From an uncultured Prochlorococcus sp. (lineage in GTDB: Bacteria; Cyanobacteriota; Cyanobacteriia; PCC-6307; Cyanobiaceae), in assembly GCA_902587615.1 (NCBI GenBank), contig CACILY010000001.1, positions 1 through 64,000 on the forward strand: 64,000 bases of DNA, in the 5' to 3' direction. Each line of letters begins with the position of its first letter. The first letter of the stretch is position 1. Below the pieces are notes generated by a model. That model did no database searches. It was not told the origin of the DNA and saw only the letters and a program-made list of their open reading frames with translations. Position numbers and translations under genes: made by a program. Positions 9,573 through 38,531 of the stretch are shown here, piece by piece.

Positions 9573-10421
9573 TCAAACAATGATTTCTTGTAGATCAGGT
9601 ATCATTTGGAGTGGTTCATTTTTCCGATAAGGCAATGAACCAATAAGAAGTTTTCCTTTAGCATTGAATCTTTTCCATTCTGATGACGCAAAATCAACCA
9701 ATTTGATGGATGCTCCTGAACCTATATTTTGAACATAAACATTACCTTTTTCAAGATCCTGTCGTGAACATGCATTGAAAAATATTTTAATTACATCATC
9801 TACATGAATAAAATCTCGAACTTGTTGACCTGTTGTCATTTTAAAGTCTTTGCCATTAATAGCTGCTTCTTTTAAAGAAGGCCAGAAATTAAATTTATAT
9901 TGCCCTTCACCAAAAACAGAAAATATCCTCCCATAAAACATTTCTAAATTATATTTTTTACACTGTGCACTAGCAAGTAAAAAAGAAGCTGCTTTTGTTG
10001 CTCCGTAAGAGTTAATGGGATTAAGTGCTGAATCAGCCCTAATAGGTTGTTTTTGTGAATCAACTTCCCCATATTCATGACAGGTCCCAGCTAAGACAAT
10101 TCTTTTTATTCCTGCCTTTGCTGCACATTCAATAACATGAGATGTGCCTAAAATATTTGTCCTAACTAATTCATTCCAATCAAATTCTTTAGGGCTTATA
10201 GCACTAGCAAAATGAAGCAGAACATCGAATCCATCTAAATTCTCGACTTTTAAATTTAATAAGTCACTGTTAATCCATTTGGGCTCATCATTTAATTTGA
10301 TAACAGGTCGAGATAAATTAGATCTTCTTAATGCTGTAAATTCAATCTTCTTCCTTAAAGCGTGTTTTAAAATATGAGATCCAATGAATCCCGTTGAGCC
10401 AGTTATAAACAACTTTTTCAT
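9573..10421 (-). CDS. NAD-dependent epimerase/dehydratase (SDR) acting on a nucleotide sugar
   Basis: ORF 282 aa; GSTGFIGSH Rossmann motif, YGATKAAS catalytic YxxxK. Confidence 0.85.
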   Translation of the reverse strand: MKKLFITGSTGFIGSHILKHALRKKIEFTALRRSNLSRPVIKLNDEPKWINSDLLNLKVENLDGFDVLLHFASAISPKEFDWNELVRTNILGTSHVIECAAKAGIKRIVLAGTCHEYGEVDSQKQPIRADSALNPINSYGATKAASFLLASAQCKKYNLEMFYGRIFSVFGEGQYKFNFWPSLKEAAINGKDFKMTTGQQVRDFIHVDDVIKIFFNACSRQDLEKGNVYVQNIGSGASIKLVDFASSEWKRFNAKGKLLIGSLPYRKNEPLQMIPDLQEIIV

Positions 10422-11579
10422 TTAATTATTGAGTTTGTTTATAGATAAGATATGATCTTGATAAGATTTTAAATCATGCTTACATGCACATAATGGACTT
10501 TCTTCTTCTGTTAAAACCTTTTTGTACCAATTGATTGTTTTTTCCACTGTTATGTTGAAATTCCAAAAAGGATACCATCCTAAATATTTATAAGCTTTAT
10601 CAATTGACAAGTTTAATAAGTTACTTTCATGGAGTGAATTTGACTTAATAGACGCTGACATCTTTCCATCCCAATATTTAAATGTTGTATTTACTAGGTC
10701 TCTAACAGTACGGTTGGATTCAGTTTTTGGTCCAAAGTTAAAAGAAGAGGTTAAATCTCTGTTGCCCTTATCAGATAGGAGGGCTTTTGCAAGTGACAAA
10801 TAACCTCCTAATGGTTCAAGAACATGTTGCCAAGGCCTTGTTGAATTAGGGTTTCTCACAAGAACATTTCTATTATCTTTGAGTGATCTTATGACATCAG
10901 GTATAATTCTATCTTTTGCCCAATCTCCTCCTCCAATAACATTTCCAGATCGAGCACTTGCAATGAAAAGCTTAGAGTTTTGACCATTATTGTTTACACA
11001 AAAACTAGACCTCCAAGACTCTATAGCTATTTCTGAAGCTGCCTTACTACTACTATATGGATCATGGCCTCCTAATTCATCAATCTCACGATATCCATAT
11101 GTCCACTCTTGATTTTTGTAAACCTTATCTGTAGTAATAAAAACAGTTGAACATTCATGATCTATATCTTTTAAGCAGTCTAATAAATTAACCGTTCCCA
11201 TTACATTAGTTTCCCATGTAAGTACTGGCTTCGAGTAACTAGTCCTAACAATTGGTTGAGCTGCTAGATGAAAAATAATATCCGGCTTAGTTTGAGTAAT
11301 GAGATAATTTATAGAATCTTTATTTCTAATATCTCCAATATTATGAGAGATAAATTTCTCTATTCCCAATAGATAGAAAAGCGATTTTTCATTGTCTGGT
11401 GGTAAGGAAAAACCAATAACATCAGCACCTAATTCTAGAAGCCACAAACAAAGCCAGCTTCCTTTGAAACCAGAATGTCCAGTCACTAAAACCTTTTTAC
11501 CTTTCCAAAATGTATAATTAAAGGATGGGAAAAAGTCTATTAAATTTTGTTCGGATAGATTCATTCCCAAATTTTCCAA
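10422..11579 (-). CDS. rfbG: CDP-glucose 4,6-dehydratase
   Basis: ORF 385 aa; WKGKKVLVTGHSGFKGSWLCLWLLELGADVIGFSL; partnered with rfbF. Confidence 0.92.
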   Translation of the reverse strand: MENLGMNLSEQNLIDFFPSFNYTFWKGKKVLVTGHSGFKGSWLCLWLLELGADVIGFSLPPDNEKSLFYLLGIEKFISHNIGDIRNKDSINYLITQTKPDIIFHLAAQPIVRTSYSKPVLTWETNVMGTVNLLDCLKDIDHECSTVFITTDKVYKNQEWTYGYREIDELGGHDPYSSSKAASEIAIESWRSSFCVNNNGQNSKLFIASARSGNVIGGGDWAKDRIIPDVIRSLKDNRNVLVRNPNSTRPWQHVLEPLGGYLSLAKALLSDKGNRDLTSSFNFGPKTESNRTVRDLVNTTFKYWDGKMSASIKSNSLHESNLLNLSIDKAYKYLGWYPFWNFNITVEKTINWYKKVLTEEESPLCACKHDLKSYQDHILSINKLNN

Positions 11580-12373
11580 GGAGCATCTTTACTCTTCCAT
11601 AATTCTTCTAATCTAATTTTATCTCGAAGAGTATCCATTGCTTGCCAAAAACCTTTGTGCCTATATGCACTTAGTTGACGACTGCTTGCTAACTTCATTA
11701 AAGGTTCCATTTCCCAAACCGTTTCATCTCCTTCAATTAAATCTAATACAGAAGGATTTAAAACAAAAAAACCTCCATTAATCCAAGCTTTATCTCCCTG
11801 CGGCTTTTCTTGAAATTGAATAACATTATTATTTTCTAGAGATATAGCTCCATATCGTCCTGGTGGTTGGACTGCTGTAAGAGTTGCTTCCTTCCCTTCC
11901 TTAATATGATGAGCAAGTAATTTATTTATGTTTATATTAGCTAAACCATCTCCATAAGTAAAAAAGAAAGGCTCATCCTTTGACAGATATTCTCTAACCC
12001 TTGCTAGTCGACCTCCAGTTAAGGTTAATTCTCCTGTGTCAACTAGAGTAACTTTCCAGGGTTCTGCTTTTTGACTATGCACATTCATTTTATTGACATC
12101 CATGTGAAAAGTGACGTCACTTGTATGCAAGAAATAATTAGAAAAGAATTCTTTAATTACATATCCTTTATATCCACAACATATTAGGAATTCATTGAAA
12201 TTATAATGACTATAAATCTTCATTATGTGCCAAAGAATAGGCTTACCTCCTATTTGAATCATAGGTTTTGGTGTGTTAGTCGTCTCCTCTGTTAAACGAG
12301 TTCCTAGTCCTCCGGCTAGTATTACAACTTTCAATTTAGTTCTAGATATATCCTTTATATTAATGATATTCAA
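11561..12373 (-). CDS. rfbF: glucose-1-phosphate cytidylyltransferase
   Basis: ORF 270 aa; VVILAGGLGTRLTEETTNTPKPMIQIGGKPILWHIMKIYSHYNFNEFLICCGYKGYVIKEFF. Confidence 0.94.
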   Translation of the reverse strand: MNIINIKDISRTKLKVVILAGGLGTRLTEETTNTPKPMIQIGGKPILWHIMKIYSHYNFNEFLICCGYKGYVIKEFFSNYFLHTSDVTFHMDVNKMNVHSQKAEPWKVTLVDTGELTLTGGRLARVREYLSKDEPFFFTYGDGLANININKLLAHHIKEGKEATLTAVQPPGRYGAISLENNNVIQFQEKPQGDKAWINGGFFVLNPSVLDLIEGDETVWEMEPLMKLASSRQLSAYRHKGFWQAMDTLRDKIRLEELWKSKDAPWKIWE

Positions 12374-24381: not shown

Positions 24382-26172
24382 ATGAACTTTATACAATCTA
24401 AAAAAGGTATGCTTCCAGATATTTCTAGGCTAATCATCGGACTTTGGTGCAAGGTAAGTGAGCGAGGGCGTCGCCAATTAATTATTTACCTGATTTTAGC
24501 GATTTTAAATGGAATTGCTGAGATGCTTTCTTTATTAATTATATTCCCTTTCTTAGCTGCCTTAACAGATCCTGAAAGTGTATATAACCTACCATTAATC
24601 AACTCATTTATGCCATCTATCGGTATTAATTCTCCTGATCAATTACCTCTTCTATTTACTATCCTTTTAGCTATTTCAGCTATAATCACCTCTTCAATTA
24701 GAGTTATAAATACTTGGTTTACACTTTTTTGGTCCTCGGAATTTTCAAGTTATCTAAGTTCAGAAGTTTATCAGCGTATTCTTTACTTGCCATATGAAGA
24801 GCAAATTCAGAAAAATAGTAGTAAGTCTATTACTGAAACATCAACCTATGTTAACTCTGTAATACGATTTATAGACTCATTTTTTAAATTTGTTAGTGCT
24901 TTTATTATTATGGTAAGTATATTTATCACAATATTTACAATTAATTGGAAGATTACCTTGTTTTCAGTACTTTTTTACGGACTTCTATATCTTACAATTA
25001 CATCCTTCTCTAAAAAACTGATTCTAAGAAAAGGTAAACTAATATCTCATTTACTTGAAGCACAAATTAGATATTTACAAGAGGGCTTAGGTTCAGTAAA
25101 GGATATTATAATTAATGGGAATCAATCTTATTATATAGATCTTTATAAAAAAGTCGACTTCCCATTGAAATATAATCAGTCAATGGTTCAATTTTTGAGT
25201 ATTTCACCAAGATTTATAATTGAAGGTTTTGTAGTTTTGTTTATAGCCTTTATTGGATATATACTTACGCTATCTGAAGGCCCAAATAACAATCTAATTC
25301 CTATAATTGGATCATTCGCATTCGCCTCGGCTAAGTTAATACCATCAGTACAAACGATATATTATTCCTTAATGCTACTTTTATCTAAATTTAGAGATGT
25401 CGAAATCGTTCTTTCACTACTAGATAAGCCTTTGCCTCTAGGAATACATTCTAAAGTATCTAAATATCAATTCGTTAATGAAATTAATTTCAAGGAAGTC
25501 TCTTTTTCTTATGATAATCGCGAAAATATATTAGATAAAATTAGTTTTACTATTAAAAAGGGTCAGACTATTGGCTTTATAGGTCGAACTGGTAGTGGTA
25601 AGTCAACTACAATTGATTTACTGATGGGTTTGCTCAATCCAAAGTCTGGTAATATTTTTGTCGATGGACAAGATATTCACAATAAACCAGAACTATTAAC
25701 TTCTTGGAGAAGAGGAATATCTCATGTACCGCAGGATATATATTTAGCTGATACTACAATTGCAGAGAACATAGCCTTTGGGGTTTCTTTGTCTGAAATA
25801 GATTTTGACAAACTTTATAAAGTCTCTAACCAAGCGCAGATATTATCTTTTATAGGAAGTCTAGAGAAAGGTTTTTATACTCCTATAGGAGAAAGGGGCA
25901 TTATGTTAAGTGGTGGTCAAAAACAGAGATTAGGAATAGCTAGAGCACTTTATAATCAATCTTCTATATTAGTATTTGATGAAGCCACCAGTGCATTAGA
26001 TAATACAACAGAAGAAGAACTAATGAATTCCATTAAATCAATAAGTCAAGATATAACAATCATAATGATTGCTCATCGGCTAAAAAGTCTTTCTAATTGT
26101 GATCTTATATATGTACTTGCTAAAGGTACTATAGATAGAGTCATTACTGATTTATCTGAAATTCATTCCTAA
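24382..26172 (+). CDS. ABC transporter, fused permease-ATPase (MsbA/HlyB class)
   Basis: ORF 596 aa; Walker A GRTGSGKST, signature LSGGQKQR, Walker B ILVFDEATSALD. Confidence 0.93.
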   Translation: MNFIQSKKGMLPDISRLIIGLWCKVSERGRRQLIIYLILAILNGIAEMLSLLIIFPFLAALTDPESVYNLPLINSFMPSIGINSPDQLPLLFTILLAISAIITSSIRVINTWFTLFWSSEFSSYLSSEVYQRILYLPYEEQIQKNSSKSITETSTYVNSVIRFIDSFFKFVSAFIIMVSIFITIFTINWKITLFSVLFYGLLYLTITSFSKKLILRKGKLISHLLEAQIRYLQEGLGSVKDIIINGNQSYYIDLYKKVDFPLKYNQSMVQFLSISPRFIIEGFVVLFIAFIGYILTLSEGPNNNLIPIIGSFAFASAKLIPSVQTIYYSLMLLLSKFRDVEIVLSLLDKPLPLGIHSKVSKYQFVNEINFKEVSFSYDNRENILDKISFTIKKGQTIGFIGRTGSGKSTTIDLLMGLLNPKSGNIFVDGQDIHNKPELLTSWRRGISHVPQDIYLADTTIAENIAFGVSLSEIDFDKLYKVSNQAQILSFIGSLEKGFYTPIGERGIMLSGGQKQRLGIARALYNQSSILVFDEATSALDNTTEEELMNSIKSISQDITIIMIAHRLKSLSNCDLIYVLAKGTIDRVITDLSEIHS

Positions 26173-26291: not shown

Positions 26292-27326
26292 CTATATTGT
26301 ATAAAAGTCTCTAAATTCAAAGTCTAATTTTAGGTGTTTGCAAATCGCCTTATAAAGTAGATTACATCTATTTAAATAATTATTAGCGTTTTTAATCCAG
26401 ATATATCCTTGAGTCTTATCCTCAAATGTATAACCTTTTCTTATTCTCATGGAAATCAGACACCATTTGATTGAATAAAGTGGAATCATCCATTTAAGAT
26501 CTTCTATCCATTTATCACATATTAGCCTACTCTCTAATTCTGTTATAACATTTATAGCTACTTCTTCTCTTATAAGATTTCTTGGATTGATTAACATATC
26601 TGTTACTAGTTTCCCACTAAAGTCCCATCCAGCATATTCAAAATCATAGAAATATAGCTTATTCTTATATATTAACGAGTTATGGAAACCTATATCTGAA
26701 ACTGATAATGTTTTTGAAATCAATAGTTTATTGTATAAATGATTAGTCTGTAAGACATGCTCTTTTAAATTATTAAAAATCTTAAGTAATTTTCTCTGAA
26801 TAAATATATCGTACTCTATTTTGCTATTACCTTTGTCTAAAGAAAGTATATATTTTAATCTTTGTTCTATACTATCAAAATGCTCCTTAACACAAAAAAA
26901 AGCCTCAGATGCATTGTAATTGCATCTATCTTTAACACTTAATCCTATTTTATTTACTTCTAGTACAAATTCAACTAACTCTAGCCAATGATTAGATCTT
27001 ATCTCATTCGCTTTTATTTTATTACCAGGTAACTTGTGAAATATTGCATACTTTTCTTTCTTATTAGCATGTATTACTCTCGATGTATTTTTTAAACCTT
27101 CTTCAATAAGCATTTTACTAAAATCAACTTCAACACCTAGTCTGTCTCTAGTATCATTTTCATCGTTTGGATATAATTTTATTATTGCATTATATCCTTT
27201 ATATTTTATAGCATATACGTCACTATTATTACCGCTATCTATTCGCTTTAATGACCCTTTTTCAATTGATCCACAATGTTCATTGATTATCTTATCTATT
27301 TGATTATTCATCTTATCTATTCTCAA
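26292..27326 (-). CDS. phosphotransferase (APH/choline kinase-like fold)
   Basis: ORF 344 aa; NAIIKLYP, SVSDIGFHNSLI and FYDFEYAG resemble APH-type catalytic and metal-binding motifs. Confidence 0.7.
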   Translation of the reverse strand: MRIDKMNNQIDKIINEHCGSIEKGSLKRIDSGNNSDVYAIKYKGYNAIIKLYPNDENDTRDRLGVEVDFSKMLIEEGLKNTSRVIHANKKEKYAIFHKLPGNKIKANEIRSNHWLELVEFVLEVNKIGLSVKDRCNYNASEAFFCVKEHFDSIEQRLKYILSLDKGNSKIEYDIFIQRKLLKIFNNLKEHVLQTNHLYNKLLISKTLSVSDIGFHNSLIYKNKLYFYDFEYAGWDFSGKLVTDMLINPRNLIREEVAINVITELESRLICDKWIEDLKWMIPLYSIKWCLISMRIRKGYTFEDKTQGYIWIKNANNYLNRCNLLYKAICKHLKLDFEFRDFYTI

Positions 27327-27945
27327 TCATTTTGTTGAGCTCATTCAAATTCCAGCTAGTTAATGTTCTTTCTTTAGGCCAATTTTCAACATATCCATTT
27401 GGAGAGTATAATATTCCTACAATACTTTTATCTAAATCATTTAGAATTTCAACAAGATCATCTATATATACTTCTATGCCTAGAGCTTTTATTCTCTTAA
27501 TTTTATCTGGTTTTGTGGATTCAAAGTAAATATTATCTCTTTGTATAGATCTATCCCCTTTATACGCAATCTCTTTCTCTATCCAATTAGTAGCCTCAAG
27601 CCGCAAATCATATTTTGGTCCTTTGTAAGGGTATTTTGTCTTATGGCTTACAATATATATCTTATATTTTTTCTTCTTTAGTTCATACAAAATAAGATTT
27701 AATAAAGGGGATATGTTTATTTTCTTAATGCATATTCCATAGACCTCAGCTTGTATCTCTGTAAAGATTTCTGGTTTTCTTATCCTATTGAAATAATCTC
27801 TAATTTCTTTTTTATTGTGAACACCTCCTTTCCCTCCATAGCCTCTTTTTATTGCTTCTAATTGAAATGCATTATCATATTCTATAAGTGTATTGTCGAG
27901 ATCAAATCCTATTATCATTTTCCAAGATTGATTTAATTTTTTCAA
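27313..27945 (-). CDS. HAD-superfamily phosphatase
   Basis: ORF 210 aa; FDLDNTL, IVSHK, IDDLVEIL; start may be internal Met at 27918. Confidence 0.75.
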   Translation of the reverse strand: MKKLNQSWKMIIGFDLDNTLIEYDNAFQLEAIKRGYGGKGGVHNKKEIRDYFNRIRKPEIFTEIQAEVYGICIKKINISPLLNLILYELKKKKYKIYIVSHKTKYPYKGPKYDLRLEATNWIEKEIAYKGDRSIQRDNIYFESTKPDKIKRIKALGIEVYIDDLVEILNDLDKSIVGILYSPNGYVENWPKERTLTSWNLNELNKMIENR

Positions 27946-28840
27946 TAATACCTTGCTTGTCTAACTTCATAGAAGATCTTACATAATTTTGATCCCCTAA
28001 TTTATGAATAAATTCATGAGGGGCTCCTTTTAAAAACACTGTTAGGTTTTTAGCGTTCTTTTTCGTAGTTGCTTGCCATTCTAATAACATTGAACCAAGG
28101 CCTCCTTTTTCGTAGTGTTCTTCTATTACTAACCATTTTGAGAACTTTATTGAACATTCTTCAAGTAAATCATTTGGCAATGGATTAAGTCGCCCTATAT
28201 CAAGAAACTCTATATGCTCGCGATATTCTTCCAATTCATCAATAGAATCTAATATTGACGATACTATCGGTCCATAACTTATAACTAATAAGCTTTGACC
28301 TTCATTTAGAATTGAACTTAGTCCATGCTTCCTAATTCTTCTAGGGGATAAATCTTTTTCTCCTTTTTTACCAAGCCTAATATAACTAGGTTTATTTACT
28401 TTTAACGCTTCATGAATATGGGCCTTAACCTCATTCGGATCGGATGGTGAATAAATAGATATTCCAGGAATCGATCTAATGATTGCAATGTCTTCTAGCG
28501 AATGATGAGTTGGGCCCAATTCTGCGTATGAAAGTCCAGATCCTGTTCCTACGATCACTACAGGATAATTATGGTAACCAAGTCCAATTTTTATTTGCTC
28601 TAAGCATCTCGTAGTTGTAAAGGGCGTAATTGTATAGACAAAAGGTCTAAGCCCGGTGCTTGCCAATCCTGCCGCGGTACTCATCATATTTGCTTCTGCA
28701 ATCCCACAATTAAAAAATCTTTCTTTAGCTACTATTTTAAATTTATCGAACATTCTATTACCAATATCCCCAGATAGTAAAACAACATCGGGATTGCTTT
28801 TTGCTATCTCAGTTATTTCATTTGCAAAAGCATTACGCAT
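27902..28840 (-). CDS. transketolase C-terminal half (pyrimidine-binding + C-terminal domains)
   Basis: ORF 312 aa; MRNAFANEITEIAKSNPDVVLLSGDIG...RFFNCGIAEANMMSTAAGLASTG. Confidence 0.9.
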   Translation of the reverse strand: MRNAFANEITEIAKSNPDVVLLSGDIGNRMFDKFKIVAKERFFNCGIAEANMMSTAAGLASTGLRPFVYTITPFTTTRCLEQIKIGLGYHNYPVVIVGTGSGLSYAELGPTHHSLEDIAIIRSIPGISIYSPSDPNEVKAHIHEALKVNKPSYIRLGKKGEKDLSPRRIRKHGLSSILNEGQSLLVISYGPIVSSILDSIDELEEYREHIEFLDIGRLNPLPNDLLEECSIKFSKWLVIEEHYEKGGLGSMLLEWQATTKKNAKNLTVFLKGAPHEFIHKLGDQNYVRSSMKLDKQGIIEKIKSILENDNRI

Positions 28841-28976
28841 AATCTATTTTTTCTATATCTTGTATTCTAGACCATCAATAGAGATTTAATATCTCGAAAC
28901 CTAATAACATAATGATATTAGTATTCATAGTTATTTGCTTTTTCTAATTTTATTAGAAAATATAATAAGTTAATAA

Positions 28977-29807
28977 TTATATGGCTAATTCTTTCTTTGC
29001 CATTTTTACTTCTTGATAATTTGGAATTCTATAATGCCAATTATTGTCATCTTCCATAAATGAAACCCCTTTACCTTTAACTGTATTACATATAATTACA
29101 CTAGGTTTATTTACATCTTTGAGAGATGATTCAAATGCTGCCCCCATTGATGTGAAATTATGTCCATCTATCTCTTGAACATGCCAACCAAATGCTTTCC
29201 ATTTATCTGCCAAAGGTTCTAAAGCTAAGATCTCGTTACTTCTTCCTGTTGCCTGCCATTTGTTGTAGTCAACTATAACTATTAAATTATTAATTCTTTG
29301 ACTTGATGCAAGCATAGCCGCTTCCCATACAGTCCCTTCATTGCATTCCCCATCACTAATTAATACATAGGAATTGAACACTATATTCTTAATGCGTGCT
29401 CCCAGCGACATTCCTAGAGCCATTGGAAGTCCATGACCTAATGATCCTGTTGCAGCTTCTATTCCAGGAATATATCCTGGAATAGGTGGATGTTCATGAA
29501 ATACACTTCCTTGGTTGCCAAATTCATTTAAAAGTGATTTAGGAAAAAAACCCTTCTCTGCAAGCACTTGGAAAAGAGCAGGAGCTCCATGCCCTTTACT
29601 TAATAAAAATCGGTCTCGATTATGATTATTAGGGTTTTTAGGTGATATTGATAATTGATTCCAATAAAGAAATACTAATAAATCTATGCAGGAAAGGCAT
29701 GATCCTAAGTGTGGAATTTTAGCTAAATGAGAAGTTTCGACTATTCTTTGTCTTAACAATCTTGAAATTGCTTGTAATTCAATTACGGTTTTTTTGTCTA
29801 CTTTCAC
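28977..29807 (-). CDS. transketolase N-terminal half (ThDP-binding)
   Basis: ORF 276 aa; SKGHGAPALF, GSLGHGLPMALG, ThDP motif SDGECNEGTVWEAAMLASSQRINNLIVIVDYN. Confidence 0.92.
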   Translation of the reverse strand: MKVDKKTVIELQAISRLLRQRIVETSHLAKIPHLGSCLSCIDLLVFLYWNQLSISPKNPNNHNRDRFLLSKGHGAPALFQVLAEKGFFPKSLLNEFGNQGSVFHEHPPIPGYIPGIEAATGSLGHGLPMALGMSLGARIKNIVFNSYVLISDGECNEGTVWEAAMLASSQRINNLIVIVDYNKWQATGRSNEILALEPLADKWKAFGWHVQEIDGHNFTSMGAAFESSLKDVNKPSVIICNTVKGKGVSFMEDDNNWHYRIPNYQEVKMAKKELAI

Positions 29808-29810
29808 TTG

Positions 29811-30749
29811 TTATTCCAAATCTAATTGCTTCATCCATTTAACTGTATAGCACATATCTGATTCAATTAACTTTCCATGATTGTATGCTTTTATAATCTC
29901 TGTAACTGCTTTTTCTACATTATACAATGGTTTGAATCCAGTATTCACTAATTTAGTTGAGTCTTGTCTGTATGATCTAGGATCATTAGATTCTGTTATT
30001 TCAATTTTTGTATCGATATGTTTTGCAATCAATTCAGCAATATTAATAATAGAAAAGTTTTCAAATCCAGCATTATAACAACCACTATCTAAATCATTTT
30101 TAATAAAGTGTTTGTATACATTTACTATATCCTTAATGTGAATATTAGGCCTTGTTTGATTGCCTCCAAAAACAGTAATTTTTTTATTTTTAATTGCTTG
30201 ATATGTAAGCATATTAACACTCACGTCTAATCTCATTCTAGGGGAAATGCCACAAACAGTTGCAGGCCTAATACAATAGACTTTCATATGATCTGAATAA
30301 GAAAGAAATATTCTCTCAGCAATCATTTTGGTTTTGTTATATGTAGATATTGGAACTAATGGCAAATCTTCAGTAACTTTAGCCTCATCTTTAACACCAT
30401 AAACACTACCAGAACTTGCAAATATAAATTTTTTAACGCCAGCTCTAACAGCTCGATCTGCAAGTTGTTGACCTGCTAGAACATTAACTTCCCAGCTTAA
30501 ATTGGGATTTAATTCTACAGCTGGATCATTCGCAATGTTTGCCAGATGAATAACAGTTTCTACTCCTTCAATAGGTATACTATTAGTATTCGTGATATTT
30601 TCTTTGATGTTAGTCAAATTTGGGTGTGTATCTAAGTAATTACCAAACCACTGAGAATCAATATTAATTATCTCATGACCTTCTTGTAAAAGGTCTGGAA
30701 TTAAAACAGAACCTTTATATCCACAACCACCAGTAATGAGTATCTTCAT
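29811..30749 (-). CDS. NAD-dependent epimerase/dehydratase (extended SDR)
   Basis: ORF 312 aa; ITGGCGYKGSVLIP, YNKTKMIAE. Confidence 0.88.
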   Translation of the reverse strand: MKILITGGCGYKGSVLIPDLLQEGHEIINIDSQWFGNYLDTHPNLTNIKENITNTNSIPIEGVETVIHLANIANDPAVELNPNLSWEVNVLAGQQLADRAVRAGVKKFIFASSGSVYGVKDEAKVTEDLPLVPISTYNKTKMIAERIFLSYSDHMKVYCIRPATVCGISPRMRLDVSVNMLTYQAIKNKKITVFGGNQTRPNIHIKDIVNVYKHFIKNDLDSGCYNAGFENFSIINIAELIAKHIDTKIEITESNDPRSYRQDSTKLVNTGFKPLYNVEKAVTEIIKAYNHGKLIESDMCYTVKWMKQLDLE

Positions 30750-31783
30750 GCTTTATGTGTATAATCCCAACTCATGTTTCTGAGCTTACTTATATTTAAA
30801 TCTATCCATTCAAACGTTGCTTGAATTCCTTGTTTTAAATCCACTTTTTCTTCCCAATTAAACTCTTTTCTTATAGCGGAACTGTCTAGTAGATAACTTT
30901 GATCTTTACCAAGACGTTCTGAGCTTATATTAACTATTGATTCAAACTTAACATTACTATACTTACATATTAGTTTTACTAAATCAATTATTTTTATGGA
31001 GTCCTTAGTTGAGATATGCCAGTTTGTTCCTGGTTCTCCGTGAAGAGCTAGCTTCAATGTTGCATCAATAACATCATCAATATGAATAAAGGACCTTTCA
31101 GATACTCCTCCTCCGTGCAGATTCATAGGTTTTTTAGTTCTTGTACTCAAAATAGTTCTAGGGATTATTCTATAAAGTTGTTGACCTGGCCCATACACAT
31201 TAGCCGCTCTCGTAAAGATAACTGGAAAATTATAAGCCTTATAGAAGGATAAAAGATGTAAGTCACAAGATGCTCTACTGACAGCGTAAGGGGTGCTTGG
31301 AGAAAATATATAGCTTTCCTTAATCCATTTTTGTTCTGTGTTTCCATATACTTCTGGGGTAGAAATATGAACATACTTTTCAATAAAATCTTTTTTACGA
31401 AGTTCATCGTGCAATGCTACTTGTGCTAATACATTTGTTTTGTACCAATTAAGTGGTTTTAACCAACTTTCAGCAACCATCCCTTGAGAGGCGAAATTTA
31501 AAATATGAGAGGGTTTTACTTCATCGATAAGTTCGATTAACTTATCAAGATCATTATTCAGATCAATTTTATTAAATGAAAAAAGTTTTGTTTTAATTTT
31601 GTTATCTGAAGTTGATTTTTCCCATTTGTAAGGCAGAAATATATCGTGAGGTTCTTCTGATCTGCTAACACCCCATACTTTATATCCTTCAGTGATTGCT
31701 CTATTTACGAAATGTGAACCACTAAAGCTATTACTTCCGATAACTAGAAACTTATGATTATTCAAATTATTTAAATAAATCAT
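30746..31783 (-). CDS. NAD-dependent epimerase/dehydratase (GDP-mannose dehydratase-like SDR)
   Basis: ORF 345 aa; IGSNSFSGSHFV, YAVSRASCDLH, RAANVYGPGQQLYRIIPR. Confidence 0.86.
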   Translation of the reverse strand: MIYLNNLNNHKFLVIGSNSFSGSHFVNRAITEGYKVWGVSRSEEPHDIFLPYKWEKSTSDNKIKTKLFSFNKIDLNNDLDKLIELIDEVKPSHILNFASQGMVAESWLKPLNWYKTNVLAQVALHDELRKKDFIEKYVHISTPEVYGNTEQKWIKESYIFSPSTPYAVSRASCDLHLLSFYKAYNFPVIFTRAANVYGPGQQLYRIIPRTILSTRTKKPMNLHGGGVSERSFIHIDDVIDATLKLALHGEPGTNWHISTKDSIKIIDLVKLICKYSNVKFESIVNISSERLGKDQSYLLDSSAIRKEFNWEEKVDLKQGIQATFEWIDLNISKLRNMSWDYTHKA

Positions 31784-33254
31784 TGACGTGATTAGTTAAT
31801 GCTTTAGCTGTTATTGGGGTATTCCCCATTGTTTCAACAGCCAATGATGCCATGCAGCAACCTAGTGCGGCTGAAGTCATCATTGATTGCTTACTCGAAA
31901 GACCAGTAGCCATGACAGCTAATAGAGAGTCTCCAGCACCTGCAACATCTAATGGGTTTACTGATAAAGCAGGAAAAGGTTGATTATATGATTTCCCTTT
32001 GCTTTTAGTGTCATATGCAATAAACCCTTCAGGTCCAAGCTTCAATAAGAGCTTTTCACTTTTTGTGTTCTTTAGAATTTTCCTACTTAATTCCTCAAGC
32101 CCACTTTCTTTGTCTTGTAAAGCGACTCTTACTTCTCTTTCATTAGGACAAATAAGAGAGAAGTTTTTGAATTTAGTTATAAATCCAACTTGACTGCTGC
32201 ATTGAAGATCTCCAAATAGTAAAAGATTATATTTTTTAGACAGATCTTGAATTACATGTAGTATTTTATCTGTTATAACTCCATAGACAAAATCAGAAAT
32301 AATAATTCCGTCAACAATTGGGGCTAACTTCTTAAGTCTATTTATTACCTTTAGTTCTATATCTTTATCTAGATTATGATCCTCTAATTTACTAACACGA
32401 AAAAGTTTTTGATTTCCAACTACGTAGCGCTTCTTAAATGTAGTAGGTCTTGAGCTGTCTTCAATTAAGGAATCTCCTATATCTCTTTCTAAGAGTTTTT
32501 GCCTAACAATTTCTGAAGTATCGTCATTACCTACAACAGATATTAATTCACATTTTGCGCCAAGTGCTCTTATATGTGATGCGACGATTGCAGCTCCACC
32601 AATAAAGTTTTTACTTTCTAATTCACGTACAACAACAACGGGAGCTTCTGCACTCATCCCTAATGCTTCACATGCTGAATATTGGTCTATAATTGTATCA
32701 CCTATAACAAGCAATCTTGTCTCATCCCATTCTTTAATTGAACTAATTAGTGAATTTAACTCTAACGATTGTCTTAAGCAGGCTTCCTTAAATTGTTTAC
32801 GTTTCTCCATTCCTAATTCTTTCTCTGAATATGAAAGAAGATCTAAACCAGAATATTGAGTATCTCCTGCATGAAACTGAATATTGCCACCATAACTTTT
32901 CAATTCTTTTATCGCTTTTAAAATCTCTGGGCTAGGCTCATTTTCAAATTCATTCCCAAGTATTAATATAATAGGTTTTATGATTTTTATCGCTTCATTT
33001 AATTCATTACCGTTAAGTAGAACAATTCCATCAGCAATATCTAGCAGTTCTAGACCTTCTGATCTTTCTGATTGGTTAAATGAATATTTTTTTTGATTAT
33101 CCCCGATTAAGGCAATTACTAGGTTTTTACCTTTAGCTTTTGCCTGTCTAAGATACCTAATATGACCAGGATGGATAGTGGAGAAATGCCCATATGCAAG
33201 TACACAATCTTCATAATTAGGAACTTGATTCAGTTTATAAACTTTTGATTTCAT
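31767..33254 (-). CDS. bifunctional HldE-like protein: N-terminal cytidylyltransferase-like + C-terminal PfkB kinase
   Basis: ORF 495 aa; AYGHFSTIHPGHIRYLRQAK near N-terminus; FIGGAAIVASHIRALGA and DVAGAGDSLLAVMATGLS near C-terminus. Confidence 0.88.
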   Translation of the reverse strand: MKSKVYKLNQVPNYEDCVLAYGHFSTIHPGHIRYLRQAKAKGKNLVIALIGDNQKKYSFNQSERSEGLELLDIADGIVLLNGNELNEAIKIIKPIILILGNEFENEPSPEILKAIKELKSYGGNIQFHAGDTQYSGLDLLSYSEKELGMEKRKQFKEACLRQSLELNSLISSIKEWDETRLLVIGDTIIDQYSACEALGMSAEAPVVVVRELESKNFIGGAAIVASHIRALGAKCELISVVGNDDTSEIVRQKLLERDIGDSLIEDSSRPTTFKKRYVVGNQKLFRVSKLEDHNLDKDIELKVINRLKKLAPIVDGIIISDFVYGVITDKILHVIQDLSKKYNLLLFGDLQCSSQVGFITKFKNFSLICPNEREVRVALQDKESGLEELSRKILKNTKSEKLLLKLGPEGFIAYDTKSKGKSYNQPFPALSVNPLDVAGAGDSLLAVMATGLSSKQSMMTSAALGCCMASLAVETMGNTPITAKALTNHVNDLFK

Positions 33255-34303
33255 GTTGTAATCAGTATTCTTCCAGATGTGTCTCCTTTTATCATCGATT
33301 CAACAGCTTCATTTATATTTTCAAGACTATAGCGGGAACTTATTAAATCATCAAAATTCAATTTTCCATTATTCATTAAGTTTAAGTATCTAGGTATATC
33401 CTTGTCAGGAGAGCATTCCCCACCATGGGAACCAGTAATAGTTTTTCCGAAATGAAGGTCTAAAGAATATATGGAGATATTATCGTTCTTTTTGGGAACG
33501 CCTACCAATATGATTCGCCCTTCTTTGGAAATTAACTTATAACCTAATTCGATTATTTTTACAGATCCTGTGTTATCTACAAATACATCTAAGCTCTTTT
33601 CATTTAGAATAGACTTTATTTTACTTGTAAATCCACTTACAGTACTATTAATTGAATGAGTTGCTCCCATCTTCTTTGCAAGTTCTAAGCGATTATCAAA
33701 TTTATCTATAGCTATTATTGGATATGCTGATAGTAATTTTGATGCTTGAATGATATTTAAGCCTACGCCTCCTGCTCCAAATACTAATACTGATTCACCC
33801 ATACGTAATTTTGCATTATTTTCTATTACTCCAAAACCTGTTGTAATAGCGCATCCGAATAAGGCAGCTATCTCAGTATCTAGATTTTCAGGCACTTTAG
33901 TGCATCTGTTCTCACTTACTATTGCATGAGTATTGAATGTGGTTATACAGCCCGCGTTAAGTTTTTTCCCTCTCCATTTGTATATGGGCGGATCTGATTC
34001 TATTCCAATACCTTTTCTCCAGTGTAGAACCACCTTATCCCCTGGAGACACGTATTTAACCCCTGGGCCAACTTCAATAACAGTTCCACAGCCTTCATGT
34101 CCCATCAAGTGAGGTAAATAAGGGTCAATGCCTTTGACTCCTGAGATCTCACCAAGTTGGGAACCACAAATACCACTTGTATGGACTTTTACCAATACTT
34201 GACCAGTAGAGAAAAATTCGGGTAATTCGAATGAGTCAACAATTAGGGGGGTATTTTGAGCGGTTAAAATCGCACCTTTTGGTCTAATATCTGGAATTCT
34301 CAT
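33251..34303 (-). CDS. zinc-type alcohol dehydrogenase (MDR)
   Basis: ORF 350 aa; GHEGCGTVIEVGPGV, VFGAGGVGLNIIQASKL. Confidence 0.9.
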   Translation of the reverse strand: MRIPDIRPKGAILTAQNTPLIVDSFELPEFFSTGQVLVKVHTSGICGSQLGEISGVKGIDPYLPHLMGHEGCGTVIEVGPGVKYVSPGDKVVLHWRKGIGIESDPPIYKWRGKKLNAGCITTFNTHAIVSENRCTKVPENLDTEIAALFGCAITTGFGVIENNAKLRMGESVLVFGAGGVGLNIIQASKLLSAYPIIAIDKFDNRLELAKKMGATHSINSTVSGFTSKIKSILNEKSLDVFVDNTGSVKIIELGYKLISKEGRIILVGVPKKNDNISIYSLDLHFGKTITGSHGGECSPDKDIPRYLNLMNNGKLNFDDLISSRYSLENINEAVESMIKGDTSGRILITT

Positions 34304-34313
34304 GAATTAATTA

Positions 34314-34985
34314 TCAATCGAAATAAATGAAGGAATAATCACCATTATATCCAGTTTTATTAAACCACCAGATCCATTCCTTTGGTGAATTGAATGCTTC
34401 ACAGGTTACTTGCCAATAAAGTAAATTGGCTTTTTCCTTCTCATTCCTATAACTTTCAACGCATATATATTTATTATCTTTACCAACTCTTTCGATTTCA
34501 CTGAGGGCAAGCTCAAGTTCATATGAGTATAAGTTATGTAATGTATTTATGGAAATTACTAGATCGAAATAGTCTGATTGCCAGTTTAGAGAACATGCAT
34601 TCCCTACTTTCACTTTATCTTTAATTTCTTCTTTACTATTATTAATAGCATATTGAGATATATCAATACCATAGATATCGGCTTCTGGTATTAATTTTTT
34701 CAAATCATATAAAAGGAATCCTTTGCCACAACCAACATCTAGTATTTTTGGACTTTTACCTAATTTGTAATAATCAATAAATTTCTGTGCAACTTTCTCC
34801 CATCTCCCTTCGATGTATCTGTAACCGCCATAATTTACTCGTCTATCACCATCCCAATAGTCAAAATCCCATTTTTTAGCTAATTCTGCTGCTTTGGCTT
34901 TTGGATACTCCTTGTCATTGACTCTTTTTAAATAATCTCTTTCTGTGCTTTTATGTAAAACACTCATGAAATCGATTTCTTTCAT
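34314..34985 (-). CDS. SAM-dependent methyltransferase
   Basis: ORF 223 aa; ILDVGCGKGFLLYDL, YGIDIS, YFDLVISINTLHN. Confidence 0.88.
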   Translation of the reverse strand: MKEIDFMSVLHKSTERDYLKRVNDKEYPKAKAAELAKKWDFDYWDGDRRVNYGGYRYIEGRWEKVAQKFIDYYKLGKSPKILDVGCGKGFLLYDLKKLIPEADIYGIDISQYAINNSKEEIKDKVKVGNACSLNWQSDYFDLVISINTLHNLYSYELELALSEIERVGKDNKYICVESYRNEKEKANLLYWQVTCEAFNSPKEWIWWFNKTGYNGDYSFIYFD

Positions 34986-35087
34986 AATTAAATTGATAAT
35001 AAGTTTTTGGAGATCAATGTAGATTCCCTTGAAATAATCTTAATAAAAACCATAGTTTCAATTGTATAAATATACTATAAATACCTT

Positions 35088-35807
35088 TCAACCAATTATT
35101 TCGAAAAGTTTTTGAGCTTCTTTTAAGGAATGTGGAGTACCTATATCCATAAAAGGATCAGATGTGTGCCATGTTTGAATTCTTCCTATTAAATTAGGTA
35201 ATACATGTTTACTAAAATCAGTTACACCATTTCCTAATTCATTAATCCATTCCAGTAAGTTCTCATCAAAAACATATATTGCTCCATTAGCTATATCAGA
35301 TGGAGGATTAGGGACTTTTTCATGAAATGATTTTACTATGCCATTAATATCTGTCTCTACTATTCCGCATGAGCTTGGCTTAGATGTTTTAAATGTAAGC
35401 ATAGTTAAAAGACAATAGCTGGGTCTATTAATATGAGCTTTTATTAGCTCTTTAAGGTCGCAAGATGTTACATTATCACCGTGTAATAAAAGGCCAGTAT
35501 ATCCACGAAAAAAAGATTGATTCCTTATAAGTGTTCCGGCTGTTCCTAGAAGTTCTTTCTCATAGCATGTCACAACTTTCGTATGTTCACTGGTCCATGT
35601 CTTTGTGAAGGATTTTACCTGATCAGATAGGTAATGAGTATTGATAAGTATATCTTTGCAGCCTAAGTTCTCTAATTGGTATAACCATCGTTCTAGGAGC
35701 ACTTGACCACATATTTTAACTAAACATTTAGGTTTCTTTATGGTAATTGGTCTTAGTCTTGTTCCAAGTCCGGCGGCTAAAACTAATGCTCTTAATGGTC
35801 TATTCAT
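35088..35807 (-). CDS. sugar-1-phosphate nucleotidyltransferase (HddC-like)
   Basis: ORF 239 aa; ALVLAAGLGTRLRPITIKKPKCLVKICGQVLLERWL, LLLHGDNV. Confidence 0.88.
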   Translation of the reverse strand: MNRPLRALVLAAGLGTRLRPITIKKPKCLVKICGQVLLERWLYQLENLGCKDILINTHYLSDQVKSFTKTWTSEHTKVVTCYEKELLGTAGTLIRNQSFFRGYTGLLLHGDNVTSCDLKELIKAHINRPSYCLLTMLTFKTSKPSSCGIVETDINGIVKSFHEKVPNPPSDIANGAIYVFDENLLEWINELGNGVTDFSKHVLPNLIGRIQTWHTSDPFMDIGTPHSLKEAQKLFEIIG

Positions 35808-35813
35808 TGTTAC

Positions 35814-37052
35814 CTAAAAGAAATTTGATCTATCTATTATTAAGTCTGCAAGTGAAAAACTTGATGTAAAGGCTGGAGATATAGCATTTAATAGATGTGT
35901 GCTATTTTTACCTTCTAAACATAAAAAATCATCTTCAAGACTATTTGCCTTCTTATTATATAACTGTGATCTTATCCCCACTTTTTGGCTTCGTTCGATA
36001 TCTTTCATTTTAATACATGGAATTAGATCCTGAGCTGCTTTTAAAAATAATCGAGGGGAAGCAAGGAAAGCTTGTTTATGAACATAACCACGAAAGTTAT
36101 CTTTGTTTTGTAAATATTGATCAATTAGTATTCGGAGATTGGTTGAAGATCTGATTGGTTCTATTCCTTTGTAATTAAAATAATTTTCTCTACCAAGACA
36201 AAATGAAGCTGTAGGTCCAATGTTAACTATAGGTATATTGTCAGCAGTTGGAGTGAAATGAACACCTAGAAACGGAACATTTAAATCAGGAACTGGATAT
36301 AAATTAGTGGATATTTTTATTTTGCATTCTTTTTTTAGTCTCCAATAATGTCCTTTGAAAGGTATTAAAATATAATCGGAGCCTATATTAAATTTCTTAG
36401 CTATTTCTTCGGCCTGTACCCCAGCACAATTTATTAAATGGGAGTACTTAATTATTTTATTACTTTTAAGTCTTATTTGAGAGAGTTCAGTCTCTAGTTC
36501 CCAATTCTTTGTGTCTTTTAGTATTTGAACTCCACTATCTAATAGATTATTTTCTAGGGAATGCATAATCTCTAATGGTTTTATAACTGCTGTCTCTGGA
36601 GACCAGAGTGCTCTATTAGTTGTGCATTTCGCTTCTGGAATCATATTTTTAAGTTGGACATCGTTAATAAGTTCTACTTTTGCCCCATTTGCAATTCCCC
36701 TTTTTAATAATAAATCAAGTTGATTATCTAATTCTCGTTTGGTTGGAATAATAATCTTTCCACATTTGTTAATCGATAAATTATTGTCTTTTATCCATGA
36801 TTTGAGTCTTTTACCTCCTGAGACACAAACATCTGCTTTTAAGGAATTTGGTTTATAGTAAAGACCAGCATGGATAACACCGCTATTTCTTCCTGAGCTA
36901 TGACAACCAATACTTTTCTCCTTTTCTAATATAATAATATTTTTGCTTATATTCCGTTTTATTAGTTGATGAGCCAAGCATAATCCAACAATACCGCCTC
37001 CTATAATTACTACTTCTGTAGAGTTCTTCATGCTATCTTTTCTTATATTCAA
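35814..37052 (-). CDS. FAD-dependent oxidoreductase, L-2-hydroxyglutarate oxidase (LhgO)-like
   Basis: ORF 412 aa; VVIIGGGIVGLCLAHQL, SSGRNSGVIHAGLYYKPNSLKADVCVSGG. Confidence 0.88.
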   Translation of the reverse strand: MNIRKDSMKNSTEVVIIGGGIVGLCLAHQLIKRNISKNIIILEKEKSIGCHSSGRNSGVIHAGLYYKPNSLKADVCVSGGKRLKSWIKDNNLSINKCGKIIIPTKRELDNQLDLLLKRGIANGAKVELINDVQLKNMIPEAKCTTNRALWSPETAVIKPLEIMHSLENNLLDSGVQILKDTKNWELETELSQIRLKSNKIIKYSHLINCAGVQAEEIAKKFNIGSDYILIPFKGHYWRLKKECKIKISTNLYPVPDLNVPFLGVHFTPTADNIPIVNIGPTASFCLGRENYFNYKGIEPIRSSTNLRILIDQYLQNKDNFRGYVHKQAFLASPRLFLKAAQDLIPCIKMKDIERSQKVGIRSQLYNKKANSLEDDFLCLEGKNSTHLLNAISPAFTSSFSLADLIIDRSNFF

Positions 37053-37686
37053 TCGAACTTATAGGGAAATCAACTAGACTATCTAAAAAAGTAATTTTAC
37101 TATTGTGTCCATTACATGTGAAAATATTTCTATTTTTAATATATTTACATAGTTTATCTTTCTCTTTAATTTCATGTACTGATTTGACATGAAATAACTT
37201 CTCAACACCAGCTAGGCAACCTGCTTTTAGATCACAAATCCTATCTCCTATAAGTAATGATTCTTTTAAGTTTATATTTAGGTCGTTTTTGGCTGAAAAC
37301 AACATTTCTGGACTAGGTTTCCTCCAACTATTAGATGGAGCATTATTTCCATAGCTATTAGAATAGATAGCACTTATTGGGTTTGGTTTACCTAATAAAC
37401 TAAGCATACGATAAGTAACTTTTTTATAGTCATCCCAGCTAAATAATCCTTTAGAGATTCCTGACTGGTTCGTAATCACTATTATGGATAAATTGGCATC
37501 AAATGCATATCTTATTAAATTGTAAGCACCCTGACATAGCTCAACGTTATTCTCGTCACTCACATGATGCTTGTCTTTTATTATAACGCCATCTCTATCT
37601 AAAAAAAGAGCTTTACTCTTATTTTTTTTATTTATATTATTCTTAAAAATTATTTTGTTCTTGCTTTTTGAATCTTGATTTTCCAT
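37033..37686 (-). CDS. HAD-IIIA phosphatase, GmhB-like (heptose bisphosphatase family)
   Basis: ORF 217 aa; ALFLDRDGVIIKD, IVITNQSGISKGLFS, KPSPEMLF, LIGDRICDLKAGCLAGV. Confidence 0.88.
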   Translation of the reverse strand: MENQDSKSKNKIIFKNNINKKNKSKALFLDRDGVIIKDKHHVSDENNVELCQGAYNLIRYAFDANLSIIVITNQSGISKGLFSWDDYKKVTYRMLSLLGKPNPISAIYSNSYGNNAPSNSWRKPSPEMLFSAKNDLNINLKESLLIGDRICDLKAGCLAGVEKLFHVKSVHEIKEKDKLCKYIKNRNIFTCNGHNSKITFLDSLVDFPISSIEYKKR

Positions 37687-37754
37687 ATTTAATATAATTA
37701 TTTTATATTCTTTTTAATTAGATATATCAATGTCATTTTACTCTTTATTAGTAC

Positions 37755-38531
37755 TCACTTCCATGTTTTATATACAATTCTTCCCATTATCTCTTTAATG
37801 GCTATTGAACTTTTATTAAGATTACCTGCTATAGGTATCCAATTATATGTTTGCTTGAATATATCCAACATGGAAGAACTGCTGGTCTTGAAATCCACTG
37901 GAAATATTTGTACTTCCAGACCTCTTCGTTCAAAGATCCGCTTTGCTCTTTGCATATGAAAAGCACTGGTTACTAGAATTATCTTAGGTCGTGGAATATC
38001 TATTCTTGATTTAAGATTTTTACTTATCGCATTAGCTTCTTGTAAAGTATTGGTAACAGTCTGAGTTGAAAAAACTGAATTTGCTGGTACTCCTAATTCA
38101 ATCGCCTTCTTAATATAAAGTGTACCTTCATTTGAACTATTGGAATCTTTAACATTAAATCCACCAGTAAAATATAACTTAGTGGCTTTACCTTCTTTAA
38201 AGAGTTTTACACCCGCATTAAATCTATCTGGATCACCCCATTCTATGACATTTGAATTCCCATGGTATTGATGGATTCCTCCTCCACTTAAGACGATAAT
38301 TGCATTTGCTTTTTTTAATGAATGTTGTTTTTCAATCTTATATGGATGTTCAACTATTCTGAATAATAGCTCACTTATAAAACCTGTACTAAATAACCAT
38401 AGAACTGATAACGCAGAAACAACAGGCCATTTGCGATTCTTTCTAGATATAAGGAAAAACAATAGCAAAATCAAAGATGTACCTAAAGGTAATAGAGTAT
38501 GAATAAGAACTTTTCTAAGAATTAATTCCAT
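37755..38531 (-). CDS. YdcF/ElyC family (DUF218) membrane protein
   Basis: ORF 258 aa; AIIVLSGGGIHQY, LVTSAFHMQRAKRIFERRGLEV. Confidence 0.88.
   Translation of the reverse strand: MELILRKVLIHTLLPLGTSLILLLFFLISRKNRKWPVVSALSVLWLFSTGFISELLFRIVEHPYKIEKQHSLKKANAIIVLSGGGIHQYHGNSNVIEWGDPDRFNAGVKLFKEGKATKLYFTGGFNVKDSNSSNEGTLYIKKAIELGVPANSVFSTQTVTNTLQEANAISKNLKSRIDIPRPKIILVTSAFHMQRAKRIFERRGLEVQIFPVDFKTSSSSMLDIFKQTYNWIPIAGNLNKSSIAIKEIMGRIVYKTWK

Follow-up and report, generated by a model that had tools for sequence, protein, structure and literature searches.

A conserved picocyanobacterial surface-sugar cassette in which a split transketolase probably branches an NDP-heptose

We analyzed a 64,000-nucleotide stretch of DNA from an uncultured Prochlorococcus sp. 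(assembly GCA_902587615.1, contig CACILY010000001.1, positions 1 to 64,000; hereafter the window), with emphasis on a minus-strand gene cluster that includes a transketolase (TK) split into two polypeptides. The source genome is 1.1 Mb and incomplete (59.5%). An initial annotation had listed thirteen open reading frames in this cluster; all were found at the coordinates it gave, and its family assignments agreed with domain and profile matches or, for the APH and HAD proteins, with conserved residues and structure models. Twelve of the genes, overlapping or tightly spaced, form a conserved cassette (26292–37686), and the overlaps of a few bases between many neighbors are operon-like. In the direction of transcription, the cassette begins with a gmhB-like gene for a HAD phosphatase of the heptose-1,7-bisphosphate 7-phosphatase type (37033–37686; 114 bits to HBPPhtaseGmhB, cut-off 250), followed by an lhgO-like FAD oxidase gene (35814–37052; present in 13 of 21 cassettes) and ntp, encoding a MurU/HddC/RmlA-like sugar-1-phosphate nucleotidyltransferase (35088–35807; PF00483, NTP_transferase, 110.6 bits; 18 of 21 cassettes). 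Next come mt, a class I S-adenosylmethionine methyltransferase gene (34314–34985; PF13847, 75.9 bits), adh for a zinc-type alcohol dehydrogenase (33251–34303; PF00107 and PF08240), an hldE-like fusion (31767–33254), and two short-chain dehydrogenase/reductase (SDR) genes: sdr2, whose product is an extended SDR resembling nucleoside diphosphate (NDP)-glucose 4,6-dehydratases (30746–31783), and sdr1, for a putative Cj1427-type NDP-heptose C4-dehydrogenase (29811–30749). The split TK is encoded by tkN (28977–29807; thiamine diphosphate (ThDP) pyrophosphate domain, PF00456, Transketolase_N, 136.6 bits; best PDB match 6YAK) and tkC (27902–28840; PF02779, Transket_pyr, and PF02780, Transketolase_C). 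The cassette ends with had, a HAD phosphatase gene (27313–27945), and aph, for a small-molecule kinase of the APH/choline-kinase fold (26292–27326). The thirteenth gene, encoding a DUF218/ElyC-like envelope protein (37755–38531, minus strand; PF02698, 84.6 bits), adjoins the cassette; it had been counted as a cluster member, but the loci of relatives have no counterpart.

Of 201 genomes of the family, 22 had strong matches to the HldE-like protein, which was absent from the two other members of the genus that were searched. The loci around 20 of these matches were compared, and they share the 5'→3' order gmhB-lhgO-ntp-gmhA-mt-adh-hldE-sdr2-sdr1-[slot], the slot being occupied by different enzymes as described below. 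Picocyanobacteria from the sea and from lakes share the gene order with Polynucleobacter; named relatives were mostly Prochlorococcus and Synechococcus. Contig scans of genomes recovered ntp-sdr1-gmhA-hldE-adh-sdr2-tkN-tkC-had-aph-mt in an isolate of Polynucleobacter nymphae (L066), the cassette in other betaproteobacterial metagenome-assembled genomes (MAGs), and more distant versions in MAGs of Dehalococcoidia, Alphaproteobacteria and Verrucomicrobia. The methyltransferase is 66–74% identical among cyanobacterial cassettes and about 60% in Polynucleobacter. Ten of the 201 genomes had a close TK C-half (at least 313 bits, the next match scoring 190), and every one of them carried the HldE-like gene (Fisher p = 2.7e-11). 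The TK halves and their neighbors are therefore kept together, a point on which the initial annotation had made its reading depend, and chance clustering was rejected because one gene order is shared by different genomes and phyla. Two Planctomycete MAG contigs (L059 and L072) were excluded as evidence of spread, as their hldE is close to that of Synechococcus and they may be mis-binned. In phage records only distant split TKs were found, none close to the cassette TK, and scans for promoters and terminators gave chance-level results only.

A housekeeping role of the TK halves, which would apply if they were the only transketolase of the genome, was rejected because a separate full-length TK (674 aa, 511 bits) is encoded on another contig. 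This result upholds the earlier view of a dedicated split TK in a heptose-type surface-sugar cassette. Both ThDP domains are present and score above Pfam cut-offs, with the motif SDGECNEG in tkN and the Glu of GIAE in tkC. The cassette enzyme shows TK domains only and has none of the single-chain ThDP/FAD decarboxylase domains of YerE-like proteins. Its acceptor site is altered: S385R, H461G, D469L and R520K (E. coli numbering) were found in 10 of 10 aligned cyanobacterial cassette TKs, and the same R, G, L and K in betaproteobacterial ones, so that the four residues associated with aldose-phosphate specificity are all replaced. S385, D469 and R520 are positions that were altered by directed evolution away from phosphorylated acceptors (PMC5073344). 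Neither the split TK of Carboxydothermus nor the housekeeping TK has these changes, and D469 is also missing in several other split TKs of sugar clusters. On a plasmid of Methylovirgula sp. HY1 (L089 964–6939), rfbF-rfbG-SDR-rfbH is directly followed by tkN-tkC, and this independent case looks like a yersiniose-type pathway (leading to the CDP-3,6-dideoxy-4-ketosugar on which YerE acts in Yersinia) with a split TK in the place of YerE. Plasmids of Azospirillum (L086 2872–8710) and Paenibacillus (L088 1–5685) carry other split TKs in sugar clusters that also encode SDRs, methyltransferases and glycosyltransferases; in Paenibacillus, one TK N-half seems joined to an SDR.

In most cyanobacterial cassettes, one of three alternatives fills the slot directly after sdr1: tkN-tkC-had-aph, a pair of E1alpha and E1beta genes, or a fused E1. 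The E1-type enzymes are pyruvate-dehydrogenase-like and carry PF00676, PF02779 and PF02780 (for example, in L029 and L037), that is, an E1_dh alpha part and a Transket_pyr/Transketolase_C beta part, as in the AviB1/B2-like alphaKADH2 enzymes. When the slot content was mapped on the tree of HldE-like proteins, at least 10 changes between the TK and E1 states were needed, also between close relatives, and the slot has therefore been swapped repeatedly. In one cassette (L035 12863–16668), a fused E1-type enzyme occurred together with a divergent TK pair. Replacement of one ThDP enzyme by another at a single pathway position implies an equivalent step. TK and E1 enzymes have in common the transfer of a two-carbon acyl anion, hydroxyacetyl or acetyl. 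E1-like pairs (AviB1/B2, Pau11/12, alphaKADH2) and YerE have an established or proposed role in the two-carbon branching of 3- or 4-ketosugars (PMC4425429, PMC10338323, PMC12247030, PMC4753412). The context of the cassette TK matches this class in two respects, as a ketosugar-forming enzyme (sdr1) lies nearby and the TK is exchangeable with enzymes of the branching type. Variant cassettes with radical SAM/SPASM proteins were also noted (L041/L071, L039 and L043); in L041/L071 these proteins flank an E1-like pair.

The best solved relatives of sdr1 were 6VO6/6VO8 (142 bits, versus 83 for the next PDB match). They share with it the stretch ISPRMRLD, and sdr1 keeps YxxxK. By nearest sequence and this conserved active-site stretch, sdr1 is a putative C4-dehydrogenase of the type of Campylobacter jejuni Cj1427, the enzyme of these structures. 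Cj1427 oxidizes C4 of GDP-heptose, which gives a 4-keto-heptose, and converts 2-oxoglutarate to L-2-hydroxyglutarate (PMC10680097). The formation of this by-product would account for the LhgO-like oxidase, which is otherwise an odd member of the cassette and scored 298.7 bits against an NCBIfam cut-off of 299; we propose that it recycles L-2-hydroxyglutarate to 2-oxoglutarate. The link to a Cj1427-type enzyme was foreseen from the LhgO-like gene before the SDR search was run.

The HAD and APH genes accompanied the TK only: all 17 untruncated TK loci had them, whereas 0 of 13 E1 loci did (p = 8e-9, which is no strict probability as the loci are related; some of the 17 showed only one of the two genes). 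Neither protein of the window had a Pfam match, the APH protein of P. nymphae matched PF01636, and searches of both sequence profiles against PDB gave nothing convincing. In had, the catalytic motifs are invariant, and the AlphaFold2 model (mean confidence, pLDDT, 90.8) was matched by Foldseek to 5'(3')-deoxyribonucleotidases with the HAD phosphatase fold. Similarly, the catalytic residues of aph are invariant and its AlphaFold model matched APH/choline kinase folds in Foldseek. In a Dehalococcoidia MAG (L078 6409–8028), whose other genes include aminotransferases and a TK pair, HAD and APH are fused in frame; a second candidate fusion (L081) was rejected as its two matches lie in different frames. 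A primary alcohol is present in a hydroxyacetyl branch, that of the TK, but missing from an acetyl branch; our guess is that the HAD/APH pair acts on this alcohol.

By hand tally, adh was present in 23 of 31 ThDP-bearing and 1 of 11 ThDP-lacking cassettes (p = 3e-4). This skew fits reduction of a branch ketone, for which adh is a candidate by analogy with Pau7, a reductase of a different enzyme family that reduces the branch ketone in paulomycin (PMC4753412). In L026 (10802–12078) and L031, a small protein and a dioxygenase-looking protein without Pfam match stand in place of Adh. The product of sdr2 should not be called a 4,6-dehydratase because its catalytic Lys and Asp are lost: instead of YxxxK and the Asp-Glu pair of TDE, it has YxxxR in 16 copies and YxxxH in 2, with TPE in all 18 aligned copies. 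Such a change of YxxxK is unusual for an SDR.

With regard to the heptose-type enzymes, the initial annotation had named an HldE-like fusion, and the layout of this protein differs from that of HldE. The nucleotidyltransferase domain is N-terminal and the PfkB kinase C-terminal, which is the reverse order, and the scores are 191.5 versus a curated HldE cut-off of 345 bits and 48.7 versus 181.5. The protein is thus not the kinase-then-adenylyltransferase fusion above equivalog cut-off that characterizes HldE and the ADP-heptose route, although the HxGH and PfkB motifs are invariant among 21 sequences. The ntp product scored 65 bits with the HddC model, which is below the cut-off, and HddA, the GHMP-type kinase of the GDP-heptose pathway (GmhA-HddA-GmhB-HddC), was not found in the cassette. 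As had been noted, no GmhA is recognizable in the window, and only 102 bp (34986–35087, minus strand) separate ntp from mt. This absence had been taken as a sign that the pathway is not a standard heptose pathway, a conclusion that we rejected: relatives carry gmhA within the unit, between ntp and mt (with an SIS_2 match of 68 bits in L024), and another locus of the genome encodes a GmhA-like protein, 38% identical to the cassette GmhA. This locus lies on contig 13 (L083 6398–10294), where reading by eye gave an apparent GDP-heptose set of GmhA, an HddA-like GHMP kinase, an HddC-GmhB fusion (NTP-transferase/GmhB) and a glycosyltransferase-like gene. Supply of heptose-7-phosphate in trans is therefore possible. 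Cyanobacterial lipopolysaccharide (LPS) is reported to be mostly without heptose, including that of two marine Synechococcus strains (PMC4515613), and the cassette sugar is thus less likely to belong to a conserved LPS core than to a surface glycan of variable strains, such as an O-antigen.

Based on these observations, the cassette probably makes an NDP-heptose that is branched at a C4 ketone by the split TK and used as an activated sugar for a surface polysaccharide. In this pathway, GmhA (in trans here), the HldE-like kinase, GmhB and the nucleotidyltransferase would convert sedoheptulose-7-phosphate to NDP-heptose, and sdr1 would oxidize its C4 to the ketone, passing the electrons to 2-oxoglutarate; the LhgO-like oxidase would turn the L-2-hydroxyglutarate so formed back into 2-oxoglutarate. 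With a ketose as donor, TkN/TkC would then attach a dihydroxyethyl (hydroxyacetyl) unit at the C4 ketone. The product would be a tertiary alcohol with a two-carbon branch, and the branched sugar would have nine carbons. The branch ketone may be reduced by Adh and/or sdr2, mt may methylate the sugar, and HAD/APH may act on the primary alcohol of the branch. In related genomes, the E1-type ThDP enzyme would add an acetyl branch instead. Gene content, gene order, the interchange of TK and E1, the similarity of sdr1, the altered TK acceptor site and the linkage of HAD/APH to TK were observed directly, and from them we infer the chemistry.

Several points weigh against this reading. The HldE-, HddC- and GmhB-like proteins all score well under curated cut-offs, so they do not indicate the heptose stereochemistry or the nucleotide. 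Other split TKs, one of them probably catabolic, have lost D469 and H461 too, and the acceptor-site change is therefore supportive rather than diagnostic. In addition, 11 cassette loci had the HldE-like gene without a ThDP enzyme (for example, mt-adh-hldE-sdr2-sdr1 in L069), and most of them keep sdr1, suggesting that the 4-ketone serves other ends too. Finally, sdr2 lacks the canonical catalytic lysine, and the role of HAD/APH is only a guess.

Among alternative explanations, we considered that the TK might lengthen a sugar phosphate before activation, from a heptose- or hexose-phosphate to an octulose or nonulose phosphate, with HAD and APH moving the phosphate to the anomeric position. This possibility, which we regard as unlikely, would explain why these two genes accompany the TK only and are fused in L078, and the structures similar to the APH model include anomeric sugar kinases such as NahK. 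However, a kinase, a phosphatase and a nucleotidyltransferase are already encoded in the cassette, and E1-like enzymes are known for ketosugar branching and not for extension of sugar-phosphate chains. Compared with chain extension of a free sugar, ketone branching is favored because E1 enzymes of the ketosugar-branching kind fill the same slot and sdr1 beside it is of the Cj1427 type. Thus, of the earlier proposal that the TK builds or extends a sugar by two carbons, the addition of two carbons is partly supported and chain extension is not. Somewhat less likely still, the split TK might be a dedicated supplier of sedoheptulose-7-phosphate for a heptose pathway, uncoupled from the Calvin cycle. 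This compound is a TK product and the substrate of GmhA, and GmhA, GmhB and HldE-like genes occur in the cassette. However, E1-type cassettes keep gmhA-hldE-gmhB without any TK, an E1-type enzyme cannot form sedoheptulose-7-phosphate from pyruvate, the phosphate/aldose acceptor residues of the cassette TK are altered, and the housekeeping TK of a photosynthetic cell already yields this product. We consider it improbable that the ThDP enzyme acts on a 4-ketosugar after transfer to a lipid carrier or glycan, as proposed for avilamycin and paulomycin. This order is stated for methyleurekanate and proposed for paulomycose (PMC4425429), but YerE works on a CDP-sugar (PMC12247030) and the conserved unit has no glycosyltransferase. 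Least probable is a catabolic or unrelated small-molecule pathway (e.g., apiose/apulose-type metabolism) merely placed beside surface-sugar genes: although other split TKs occur in catabolic clusters, such as that of a Streptomyces plasmid (L090) with FGGY kinase and glycoside hydrolases, the unit lacks an uptake transporter and FGGY kinase, conserves a nucleotidyltransferase and NDP-sugar SDRs, and adjoins exporter or O-antigen genes. An apulose transketolase was not found in the literature searched.

Branching of NDP-heptose by the split TK, the reading we prefer, would fall in a known mechanism class, ThDP-dependent two-carbon branching of ketosugars. In the literature searched, we found no description of a heptose substrate, a cyanobacterial surface-sugar setting or a TK/E1 swap slot. 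Ketone-acceptor transketolases have been proposed only for Streptomyces clusters, and none was tested according to a 2025 review (PMC12247030). These are the split TKs of miharamycin and amipurimycin, which also lie beside a proposed ketone-making oxidoreductase and are proposed to transfer hydroxyacetyl to a ketosugar (PMC12247030). Unlike the cassette, with its heptose surface sugar in cyanobacteria and other Gram-negatives and a TK interchangeable with E1-type enzymes, those candidates are all from Streptomycetes and nucleoside antibiotics. AviB1/AviB2, Pau11/Pau12 and KbDH-alpha/beta (alphaKADH2) are likewise two-subunit ThDP enzymes that transfer a two-carbon unit to a ketosugar, the role proposed here for the E1 pair of relatives, but they use pyruvate as acetyl donor, serve Actinobacterial antibiotics and belong to a ThDP superfamily other than that of the window TK. 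For Gram-negative O-antigen, YerE (yersiniose A) and its relatives branch an NDP-sugar with two carbons at its C4 ketone; YerE differs in being a single-chain flavoprotein of the decarboxylase type, with a CDP-3,6-dideoxyhexose acceptor and pyruvate donor. The C. jejuni pathway shares heptose biosynthesis enzymes and C4-oxidation of NDP-heptose with conversion of 2-oxoglutarate to L-2-hydroxyglutarate, but then epimerizes and reduces the product without ThDP branching, and LhgO is not described in the part of the source available. The Carboxydothermus split transketolase (6YAJ/6YAK) is the nearest solved structure to both cassette TK halves; however, it keeps the equivalents of H461, D469 and R520 and was characterized on aldehydes (PMC7661550).

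A PglK/MsbA-like ABC exporter (24382–26172, plus strand) lies next to the cassette and provides a glycan context, and a similar exporter was seen near several other cassettes. An RfbF/RfbG-like CDP-glucose set with an SDR is located at 9573–12373 on the minus strand of the window, and rfbF/rfbG also adjoin the cassette in L048, L052 and L082, which suggests one O-antigen region with two unusual sugars. Elsewhere in the genome, contig 25 (L084 734–7523) encodes a CMP-sugar transferase-like protein, SDRs, a DegT aminotransferase, an SIS protein, a cupin and a 3-dehydroquinate-synthase-like protein, possibly of the sedoheptulose-7-phosphate cyclase family. This gene content suggests another unusual sugar or cyclitol pathway.

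The cassette may define a new class of surface sugar in picocyanobacteria, a nine-carbon NDP-heptose carrying a hydroxyacetyl branch at C4 installed by a split TK, with the TK/E1 slot diversifying the cell surface, perhaps under phage pressure; we put this broader proposal forward tentatively. If true, ketosugar branching in a polysaccharide would be assigned to a split TK for the first time. The branch chemistry of the cassette sugar seems to be exchanged like a module, that is, by modular exchange of C–C bond-forming enzymes within one sugar pathway. Besides, the substrate-making enzyme, cofactor recycling and the branching enzyme occur together in a compact conserved operon that is also present in cultured Polynucleobacter, which makes the question of ketone-acceptor TKs directly testable. 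Our reading predicts unusual branched heptoses on abundant ocean phototrophs, for which the LPS of the few analyzed strains was reported to be heptose-free (PMC4515613).

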